Source of the DNA: Picrophilus oshimae DSM 9789
GTDB lineage: Archaea; Thermoplasmatota; Thermoplasmata; Thermoplasmatales; Thermoplasmataceae
Reading direction: 5' to 3'
Assembly: GCF_900176435.1 (NCBI RefSeq)
Contig: NZ_FWYE01000001.1
Coordinates: forward strand, 434,001-498,000
DNA: 64,000 bases
This document shows, in pieces, positions 4,600-6,857 of this stretch. The position numbers and the translations under genes were made by a program. The first letter of the stretch is position 1. Every line of letters begins with the position of its first letter. A model generated the notes under the pieces. It had not been told where the DNA came from. It searched no databases and saw only the letters and a list, made by a program, of their open reading frames with translations.

Positions 4600-5169
4600 A
4601 TGAAAATCGGTGTTCTTGGAATTCAGGGGGATGTTTACGAGCATTACACAGCGATAAGATCATTAAAAAACAAATATAAGGTTGAAGCATATATAATAAG
4701 ATCACCAGAGGAAATAAACGAAATGGATGGTATAATAATACCTGGCGGTGAGAGCACAACGATAACAAGGTTTTTATCCAGATACATAAATATAATAAAC
4801 GAGAACGTTAGAAATGGCATGAAGATAATGGGAACGTGTGCCGGTGCGATAATCTTATCAAAGGATACCGGAGACCCAAGGGTTCATGGAACTGGCATAA
4901 TGGATATAAAAATACAGAGAAACGCCTATGGAAGGCAGATAGATTCCTTTATTGATGCTGTAAATATAAAAAATATCGGAACGTTCAATGCCGTTTTTAT
5001 CAGGGCCCCGGTTATAGATGATCCGGGGAAAACATCAGTCCTTGGAGAATACAATGGTAAACCGGTGATCGTTGAGAATGAAAATGCAATTGCAATGACC
5101 TTCCATCCAGAGCTTACCGGTGATTTAAGAGTTCACGAGTACTTCCTAAGGAAGGTCATGGGAAACTGA
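4600..5169 (+). CDS. pdxT: pyridoxal 5'-phosphate synthase, glutaminase subunit
   Basis: A class I glutamine amidotransferase of 189 residues. PdxT releases ammonia from glutamine and channels it to PdxS for PLP synthesis from ribose 5-phosphate and glyceraldehyde 3-phosphate. Visible signatures are GVLGIQGD at the N terminus, PGGEST, the nucleophile Cys80 in GTCAGAI, and the His/Glu of the triad in TFHPELTGD. The partner pdxS is not in the window. The gene is monocistronic. Its stop is only 7 bp before the left copy of the inverted repeat that surrounds gcvT. Confidence 0.92.
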   Translation: MKIGVLGIQGDVYEHYTAIRSLKNKYKVEAYIIRSPEEINEMDGIIIPGGESTTITRFLSRYINIINENVRNGMKIMGTCAGAIILSKDTGDPRVHGTGIMDIKIQRNAYGRQIDSFIDAVNIKNIGTFNAVFIRAPVIDDPGKTSVLGEYNGKPVIVENENAIAMTFHPELTGDLRVHEYFLRKVMGN

Positions 5170-5175
5170 TGCTCC

Positions 5176-5299
5176 AGGGTGTATTTCCAGTGGAAACATA
5201 TGAAAATACTCTTTTGTTTTGAAAATTTTTTAAAATTTATATACATGGATAATAACCTCCTTTAAAAAGGGGAGAGAGGGGTGTATTTCGAGTGGAAAC
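5176..5299 (+). repeat. left arm of a ~124-bp inverted repeat flanking gcvT (also its promoter and leader)
   Basis: The arm matches the reverse complement of 6596-6719. Two blocks are identical in both arms: 21 bp at 5176-5196 and 19 bp at 5264-5282. They are 88 bp apart start to start in each arm. Between them lies a shared TATA-like stretch (aaatttatatacatgg here). The inner end carries tttcgagtggaaa and the GTG start of gcvT. The arm therefore holds the gcvT promoter, an unusual ~25-nt leader with a Shine-Dalgarno-like agaggggtg, and two copies of a 13-bp palindrome. Confidence 0.85.
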
Positions 5300-6389
5300 G
5301 AAAAATGGTAACCGGACTGCTCTTTATGATGAGCATATAAAGTTGAATGCAAAGATGATAGACTTTCATGGATGGGAAATGCCTCTTGAATACACAGGCA
5401 TTATAGATGAGCATCTTGCAGTAAGAAATCATGTTGGCATCTTTGATGTATCACATATGGGCGATATAGTTATAAAAGGTGATGATGCTGCTGCCTTCTG
5501 TGATTACATATTTCCTGGAAAGGTATCGGATATGAAAAATGGACAGTGTATGTACACTGCCTTTCTTAATAAGGATGGAAGAATCATTGATGATACAATA
5601 ATATATAGATTGTCTGAAAAAAGGTTCTTTTTTATACCAAATGCTGCAAACATAGATAGAATATATAACTGGGTGAATTCAAATAAAAACGATTATAACG
5701 TTGAGATTAAAAATTATTCATATAATATATCGCATATAGCAATTCAGGGTCCTGATTCATTGAAAATATTGGATGAGATGAAAATAAAATACCCTGGTGA
5801 GTTTAAATTCAATTATCATAATACAGAGAGTTACAATGATGTATCAGAGGATAATTCAATAATCGTTTCAGGTACAGGATACACAGGAGAAATAGGAGTT
5901 GAAATAATAGTACCAAATAAAGATGCAACTATCCTATGGGAGGATCTAATAAAAAAGATTAAAGATTACTATGGTAAACCATGTGGCCTTGGATCCAGGG
6001 ATACATTGCGAATGGAGAAGGGCATGCTTTTATCAGGTCAGGACTTTAATGAGGATAGAACACCATATGAGGCTTCCATATCATTTATAATTAATTATAA
6101 CCATGATTTTATAGGAAAAGAGGCCCTTATAAAAAACAGGAATGAATACAATGAAATATTTAGGGGTTTTATATTGAACGGGAGAAACATACCAAGACAG
6201 AACTGTGATATTATATATAACAATGAGGTTGTTGGGATTATTTCCAGTGGAAGTTACTCACCATCATTGAATAGGGGTATTGGACTTGGATATATAAAAA
6301 AGGATATAAAAATAAAAACTACCGTAAAGATAAAAATAAGGGAGAAACTTTTTGATGCTGAGGTTTCAAGGCCAAAAATGCTAAAATGA
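5292..6389 (+). CDS. gcvT: aminomethyltransferase, glycine cleavage system T protein
   Basis: A 365-residue T protein. It transfers the methylene unit of aminomethylated H protein to tetrahydrofolate, releasing ammonia. Family signatures are LYDEHIKLNAKM, FHGWEMP, the VSHMGDI folate-site motif, GYTGEIGVEI and the C-terminal GIISSGSYSPS. The start is GTG at 5292; no in-frame ATG lies near, an upstream stop is at 5253, and agaggggtg about 8 nt before it can act as a ribosome binding site. The GTG lies inside the inner palindrome of the left repeat arm. No other glycine cleavage genes are nearby, so the gene stands alone between inverted repeats. Confidence 0.92.
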   Translation: METKNGNRTALYDEHIKLNAKMIDFHGWEMPLEYTGIIDEHLAVRNHVGIFDVSHMGDIVIKGDDAAAFCDYIFPGKVSDMKNGQCMYTAFLNKDGRIIDDTIIYRLSEKRFFFIPNAANIDRIYNWVNSNKNDYNVEIKNYSYNISHIAIQGPDSLKILDEMKIKYPGEFKFNYHNTESYNDVSEDNSIIVSGTGYTGEIGVEIIVPNKDATILWEDLIKKIKDYYGKPCGLGSRDTLRMEKGMLLSGQDFNEDRTPYEASISFIINYNHDFIGKEALIKNRNEYNEIFRGFILNGRNIPRQNCDIIYNNEVVGIISSGSYSPSLNRGIGLGYIKKDIKIKTTVKIKIREKLFDAEVSRPKMLK

Positions 6390-6595
6390 TGTTTTTTCTT
6401 AATTTTTATTTTATTGTCTATATTTTATGTATAAAAAATTTTTATTTTTTTATTTTTATTTTATTTATGCGAAAGGTGTAAGCCGTAAAATTTTTAATTT
6501 AAATTTTACTAAAAAAATATATAATATAATAATATTATTTATCATTAATTATAAAAAATGAAACACTGCAAAAATTACCATGGCATCAATTTTCC

Positions 6596-6719
6596 ACTTC
6601 CAGTAGAAATATACCCCTCTCTCCCCTTTTTATTATAGTATATTTTCCATGTATGTATATTTTAATTTTTTTCCATTCTCATTCTTTATTTTTCTGCATT
6701 TCCACTGGAAATACACCCT
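6596..6719 (-). repeat. right arm of the inverted repeat flanking gcvT
   Basis: Read on the minus strand, this arm repeats 5176-5299. The 21-bp block is at 6699-6719 and the 19-bp block at 6613-6631, with the same 88-bp spacing as the left arm. A TATA-like aaaatatacatacatgg lies between them. The inner end keeps a start-like ctggaagtggaa, followed in that frame by a stop after four codons. No gene follows it leftward. It may be a relic upstream region, an element end, or a promoter for RNA antisense to gcvT. Confidence 0.8.
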
Positions 6720-6731
6720 TCAAATTTTGCA

Positions 6732-6745
6732 CTTCCAGTGGAAAC
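6732..6745 (+). repeat. extra copy of the ttccagtggaa palindrome upstream of tRNA-Ala
   Basis: The sequence cttccagtggaaac repeats the palindromic core of the two gcvT-flanking arms. It lies just outside the right arm, 12 bp from it, and about 12 bp upstream of the TATA-like tttatta of tRNA-Ala. Nothing shows whether it acts on the tRNA gene. Confidence 0.5.
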
Positions 6746-6785: not shown

Positions 6786-6857
6786 GGGCCGATAGATCAG
6801 CGGTAGATCGCCTGCTTTGCAAGCAGGAGGGCTCGGGTTCAAATCCCGATCGGTCCA
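6786..6857 (+). tRNA. tRNA-Ala (anticodon TGC)
   Basis: The 7-bp acceptor stem GGGCCGA pairs with TCGGTCC and contains the G3-U70 wobble pair that is the alanine identity element. The anticodon stem cctgc/gcagg closes the loop tttgcaa, giving anticodon TGC. The T arm has gggttcaaatccc. The discriminator is A and CCA is not fully encoded. No intron is present. A TATA-like tttatta at 6757-6763 lies about 26 nt upstream. Confidence 0.95.

Follow-up and report, generated by a model that had tools for sequence, protein, structure and literature searches.

The archaeon Picrophilus oshimae DSM 9789 probably starts copying its chromosome at the gcvT locus, with gcvT lying inside the origin (oriC); we place the probability of this reading at roughly 80%. 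At archaeal replication origins, Orc1/Cdc6 binds to origin recognition boxes (ORBs). Inverted ORBs around gcvT, matches to the same kind of site at cdc6 in related families, and outward-facing pairs beyond the order Thermoplasmatales together led us to regard the locus as a probable origin. The identification is based on the sequence identity of the sites, their pairing, their orientation, their conservation, and their linkage to cdc6 in relatives. The locus is unusual for an origin in that cdc6 is far away, a metabolic gene lies inside, and a C-run is present where most ORBs have a G-run.

The inverted repeat enclosing gcvT

The window (the whole 64,000-nucleotide stretch analyzed here) contains gcvT between two mirrored arms. 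Positions 5176-5299 were compared with the whole genome by blast and matched two places: themselves and their reverse complement at 6598-6719 (74% identity over 122 bp; E 1.3e-15). A repeat search of the window returned the same two inverted pairs (77 nt at 81% and 33 nt at 85%). A 21-bp block, AGGGTGTATTTCCAGTGGAAA (5176-5196 and 6699-6719), and a 19-bp block, AAAAAGGGGAGAGAGGGGT, are identical in the left and right arms, and acatgg sits between the two blocks. The symmetric inverted repeat described in the initial annotation was thus confirmed by three lines of evidence: blast, the repeat search, and the identical blocks.

Each arm contains two dyads, 102 bp apart, and one more dyad is present at 6732-6744. 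With up to two mismatches, the near-palindrome TTTCCASTGGAAA occurs 10 times in the window versus 2.4 expected, a number reached in 0 of 100 shuffled windows; within the genome, its exact form is confined to the two arms. A copy at 6241-6253 (TTTCCAGTGGAAG) falls within the gcvT coding sequence, in the part for the conserved SSG region, and is probably a chance match.

The sites match origin recognition boxes

In the outward direction, the sites agree with the ORB dyad TTCCASTGGAAA(T/C), i.e., TCCASTGGAAA(T/C), as compared with the published consensus. That archaeal ORB consensus is CTTCCAGTGGAAACGAAAGGGGT, and the Methanomassiliicoccales consensus is GTTCCAGTGGAAATGG-AGGGGTA (PMC4153887); Ori-Finder 2 gives TCCA[CG]T[TG]GAAA[TC][GA]AAGGGGT as the common motif (PMC4164010). 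The fifth dyad has exactly the core published for the archaeal ORB, CTTCCAGTGGAAAC. Judged by sequence, then, each arm carries two ORBs and not a gcvT promoter (Table 1). The match to the ORB dyad runs counter to the earlier proposal that the arms are mirrored copies of the gcvT promoter and leader, and the earlier remark that no known family matches did not hold, since ORBs are a known family. An antisense promoter is unnecessary as an explanation of the repeat.

Table 1. Features of the P. oshimae gcvT locus (window coordinates; ORBs as predicted), with two gene-free ORB pairs of group g11 (locus coordinates)
Feature	Position	Strand	Match or remark
pdxT, usual left neighbor	4600..5169	+	
Outer left ORB, dyad TTTCCAGTGGAAA plus short outward string GGGTGT	5176..5197	- (outward)	R1 match G000:C1:439177-439197, 18.8 bits
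Inner left ORB, full string (GGGGAGAGAGGGGTGTATTTCGAGTGGAAAC on + strand)	5267..5298	-	R1 match G000:C1:439267-439298, E 4.9e-7
gcvT (aminomethyltransferase), gene inside putative origin	5292..6389	+	
A+T-rich stretch	6390..6595	none	85.4% A+T versus 63.8% for the window
Inner right ORB, full string, mirrored	6596..6628	+	R1 match G000:C1:440596-440628, E 1.0e-7
Outer right ORB, mirrored	6698..6719	+	21 bp identical to outer left ORB; R1 match 440698-440718, 18.4 bits
Fifth dyad ACTTCCAGTGGAAAC, without string, mini-ORB-like	6731..6745	+	
tRNA-Ala(TGC), right neighbor	6786..6857	+	
Empty ORB pair, g11, L120	9671-9845		
Empty ORB pair, g11, L132	7156-7323		

The string that follows the dyad is a C-run in Picrophilus and its family (f1), where the element reads GGGGGAGAGGGGTRYATTTCC-NN-TGGAAC, and a G-run in most sites of families f3 to f6, which on the other strand read TTCCASTGGAAATNNRGGGGT(CTCCC). 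The Picrophilus sites thus have a C-run instead of the G-string of ORBs. A G-string after the dyad is common but not universal, the Thermococcaceae motif being without it (PMC4164010), and the C-run was treated as a variant, not as a defining feature. The swap of the string between strands might mean either that the contact tolerates both polarities or that the specificity of the initiator has changed. In three g25 loci (L021, L023, and L048), one C-string ORB and one G-string ORB occur in the same pair.

A single match to the Orc1/Cdc6 family was found in P. oshimae. Among solved structures, this protein is closest to 2qby_A and 2v1u, both of which are of ORB-binding Orc1.

Conservation of the pair in Thermoplasmatales

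The gcvT loci of this genome and 52 relatives were gathered and oriented, and both flanks were searched; most had a mirrored element of ~33 bp on either side of gcvT, whose relatives are 44-62% identical. A sequence-only model of the sites (R1) was run over 61 genomes, and in most f1 genomes the two sites flanking gcvT were the only strong matches genome-wide. A search of the arms in Thermoplasmatales, as suggested in the initial annotation, was extended to a second, named collection, which overlaps the first in species and includes Ferroplasma acidarmanus, Acidiplasma aeolicum, Thermoplasma spp., E-plasma, I-plasma, Aciduliprofundum/DHVE2, and others. The inverted pair proved to be conserved around gcvT: both sites were present, inverted and with the string outward, in 68 of 80 loci, and the other 12 included contig ends, loci with one arm below threshold, the g11 group, and outgroups. 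The inner left ORB overlaps the gcvT start codon in P. oshimae, and in many relatives the pdxT stop abuts the left ORB.

The contents of the pair vary. Between the ORBs lie gcvT in f1, f4, f5, and f6 and gcvT, pdxT, and aspS in f3 (about 3.1 kb); in g11, an ORB pair about 115-140 bp apart stands beside pdxT with no gene between, and gcvT is found elsewhere without sites. Because the ORB pair occurs with various genes or with none, as in the empty g11 pair, the sites do not exist for gcvT. This bears on the idea that they form the operator of a regulator of gcvT (glycine cleavage), with one dyad per side and perhaps looping. In Picrophilus, Ferroplasma, and g19, the dyad does overlap the start of gcvT; however, the pair is kept without gcvT in g11 and brackets cdc6 in f9, which lacks gcvT, and the sites match ORBs, with the same model finding cdc6 promoters. 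A gcvT-specific operator is therefore disfavored, and we consider it very unlikely.

The empty g11 pair, with gcvT elsewhere, and the presence of inverted ends around one gene might instead suggest that gcvT is carried by a small mobile unit whose ends are the arms, as had been suggested earlier. No sign of this was seen: there was one locus per genome rather than multiple copies, gcvT was the sole gene between the arms, with no transposase, conservation was vertical over the order, and similar sites bracket other genes. A mobile element is disfavored by the single locus per genome, and we give this explanation almost no credence.

Two further observations were made at these loci. Directly 3' of gcvT, the f4 and f6 loci (L108-L113) encode a small protein of about 90 aa that is conserved and unannotated (cluster c20). 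Two g27-type loci (L304, at 2678, and L308, at 2693) carry an additional ORB in the same orientation, about 740 bp beyond the 5' arm.

Inversion and concerted evolution of the arms

Gene clusters in family f5 were defined by all-against-all blastp. The order is pdxT> [gcvT>] c10< c6< in g23 and pdxT> [gcvT<] c10< c6< in g26 and g27; i.e., the outer neighbors are the same and the ORB-bounded gcvT segment is flipped. The inner flanks moved with gcvT while the outer flanks stayed outside, which places the breakpoints at the ORBs or close to them. Inversion between the inverted repeats would explain this flip. In all genomes seen, gcvT orientation is fixed by genus, and every f1 genome with an adjacent pdxT shows the same orientation. 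Thus, the earlier suggestion of an invertible segment stands insofar as gcvT has flipped between the arms in evolution, in f5, and it does not fit the fixed orientation within genera.

In two relatives of Picrophilus (L247 and L253), the arms extend through the spacer and the gcvT start codon, and the same species-specific changes occur in both; the arms therefore undergo concerted evolution, and in the Picrophilus/Ferroplasma clade, they appear to have been homogenized by recombination. The start-like gtggaa noted earlier in the right arm of P. oshimae does mirror the gcvT start, the L247 and L253 loci show the same mirrored start, and we attribute it to this concerted evolution. The shared changes in L247 and L253, together with the inversion between g23 and g26/g27 amid the same outer neighbors, could also be read as signs of a switch, i.e., a site-specific recombination cassette whose arms flip gcvT in living cells. 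That reading has little probability given that the flip is fixed by genus and that the f1 genomes with adjacent pdxT all have one orientation.

Over the order, the 5' and 3' arms of the same locus are no more alike (identity, 0.650) than arms swapped within a genus (0.644), and they do not covary. The f1 arms are complementary over about 20-28 nt, as would suit a gcvT mRNA whose 5' end pairs with its 3' end and so hides the ribosome-binding site. This end-to-end pairing is disfavored by the lack of covariation and by the g25 runs, which cannot pair; moreover, an Rfam search of the window yielded nothing but tRNA, and we find the idea scarcely credible. A glycine riboswitch and other RNA families were likewise set aside, as the only Rfam hit in the window was tRNA-Ala.

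Linkage to orc1/cdc6 across the class

A second model (R2) was built solely from the gcvT-flanking sites of the four other families, f3 to f6, and whole genomes were searched with it. As an independent test, this gave matches beyond the gcvT sites: in 14 genomes (f3, f5, and f6), sites lie a short distance 5' of orc1/cdc6, about 170 bp from the matched domain. This position holds one ORB or two in tandem (L339-L342, L333/L334, and L336), and autoregulation is a possible function for them. In the f1 and f4 genomes examined, no ORB was found near cdc6. The P. oshimae cdc6 gene is on contig C2 and is not adjacent to the ORB pair; an adjacent orc1/cdc6 gene is usual, not universal, at archaeal origins.

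Outside the order but within the class, R2 found 32 close pairs in 32 genomes from 11 families, all outward and 0 inward, plus one extra tandem site; single weak matches in GC-rich genomes may be due to chance. The pair brackets cdc6 in 7/7 f9 genomes (1.4-1.9 kb apart), and gcvT was not found in these genomes. In f18, the pair lies 5' of cdc6 at a distance of about 210 bp. In f10, the sites are 3.0-3.2 kb apart and the gcvT 3' end adjoins one ORB, and in f13 (G067), gcvT, the ORB pair, and cdc6 fall within one 3-kb stretch, with one ORB overlapping the 3' part of gcvT. By their layout, these cases connect the gcvT-bracketing pair with cdc6-linked origins.

Skew analyses and a role other than initiation

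The position of the origin was also sought by GC skew, T-A skew, and gene strand in about 18-27% of G024, G040, and G009, as well as in 400 kb of P. oshimae, and these analyses pointed to no clear position. In the 400 kb of P. oshimae sampled, GC skew showed no switch at the locus and a minimum near 326 kb. Three relatives gave no signal (ASS_A1) or a weak fit (G024 and G040).

The skew thus lends no support to an origin at gcvT, as would be expected if the Orc1/Cdc6 sites served initiator titration or transcriptional control of gcvT/pdxT and the true origin lay elsewhere. The single ORBs upstream of cdc6 in f3, f5, and f6, placed as for autoregulation, point the same way, and some Orc1 proteins act as transcription regulators (PMC9738581). 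Nevertheless, the sites at gcvT always form an inverted outward pair, as they also do in 32/32 genomes of other orders; the same kind of pair is found at cdc6 in f9 and f13; and f1 and f4 have neither an ORB near cdc6 nor another strong site. We regard a role other than initiation as unlikely and favor the chromosomal origin.

Proposed mechanism at the probable gcvT origin

We infer Orc1/Cdc6 binding, melting, and origin activity at the locus from the arrangement of sites. Two or more inverted ORBs flank the interior, and an A+T-rich region is present between the ORBs in Picrophilus. The single Orc1/Cdc6 would bind the two inverted ORBs on each side and the fifth dyad, each facing outward. The bound initiators would then melt the interior, most easily at the 85% A+T stretch at 6390-6595, which is a candidate DNA-unwinding element. 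Comparable A+T peaks number 11 in 400 kb, and this stretch is not unique by itself; many f1 relatives have no intergenic stretch at this place, their right ORB lying directly against the gcvT stop. After melting, MCM would be recruited and two forks would leave. In such a scheme, gcvT would be a passenger inside the origin, the arms would persist through selection on the ORBs, and recombination between the inverted arms could flip the interior over evolutionary time. A bolder version, which we think doubtful, is that the gcvT interior flips in living cells via the inverted ORB arms and that the f1 string has switched strand, possibly altering initiator/MCM placement.

Discussion

The closest known system is the oriC of Methanomassiliicoccales, which likewise has the dyad (TTCCAGTGGAAAT), an inverted pair, strings facing outward, and a gene inside; there the pair encloses orc1/cdc6.1 (PMC4153887, Table 2), whereas in Picrophilus it encloses gcvT. 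The string is a G-string in Methanomassiliicoccales (PMC4153887) and a C-string in Picrophilus. In "Ca. M. alvus," ORB1/2 are inverted downstream and ORB3/4 lie upstream of cdc6.1, with the two ORBs per side 39-47 bp apart (PMC4153887, Table 2) compared with 102 bp in Picrophilus; the f9 pair is placed around cdc6 in the same way as in "Ca. M. alvus." As here, the ORBs of classical cdc6-linked archaeal origins flank an A+T-rich region (PMC4010727; PMC4164010). The Picrophilus locus differs from them in that cdc6 is on another contig and not next to the ORBs, a metabolic gene lies between the ORBs, and the string is on the other strand. Within the genus, P. torridus also has a single Orc1/Cdc6, which recognizes ORB DNA; according to Arora et al. 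2014, as cited in PMC4356968, its ATPase responds to ORB-containing DNA when PCNA is present. A literature search, covering sources other than Arora et al. 2014 itself and the DoriC records, found no report of this origin; a location at gcvT may have been proposed before by others.

The locus provides a specific, conserved address for the probable chromosomal origin in an order whose initiator gene usually lies apart from it. Because of this lack of linkage, cdc6-based origin prediction would miss the gcvT locus. The gene content between the ORBs is free (none, gcvT, cdc6, or three genes) and the outward geometry is fixed, a combination that constrains models of archaeal initiation. The natural ORB variants, including both string types within one g25 pair, are material for probing the function of the string, and the locus could help in building replicating vectors for extreme acidophiles.
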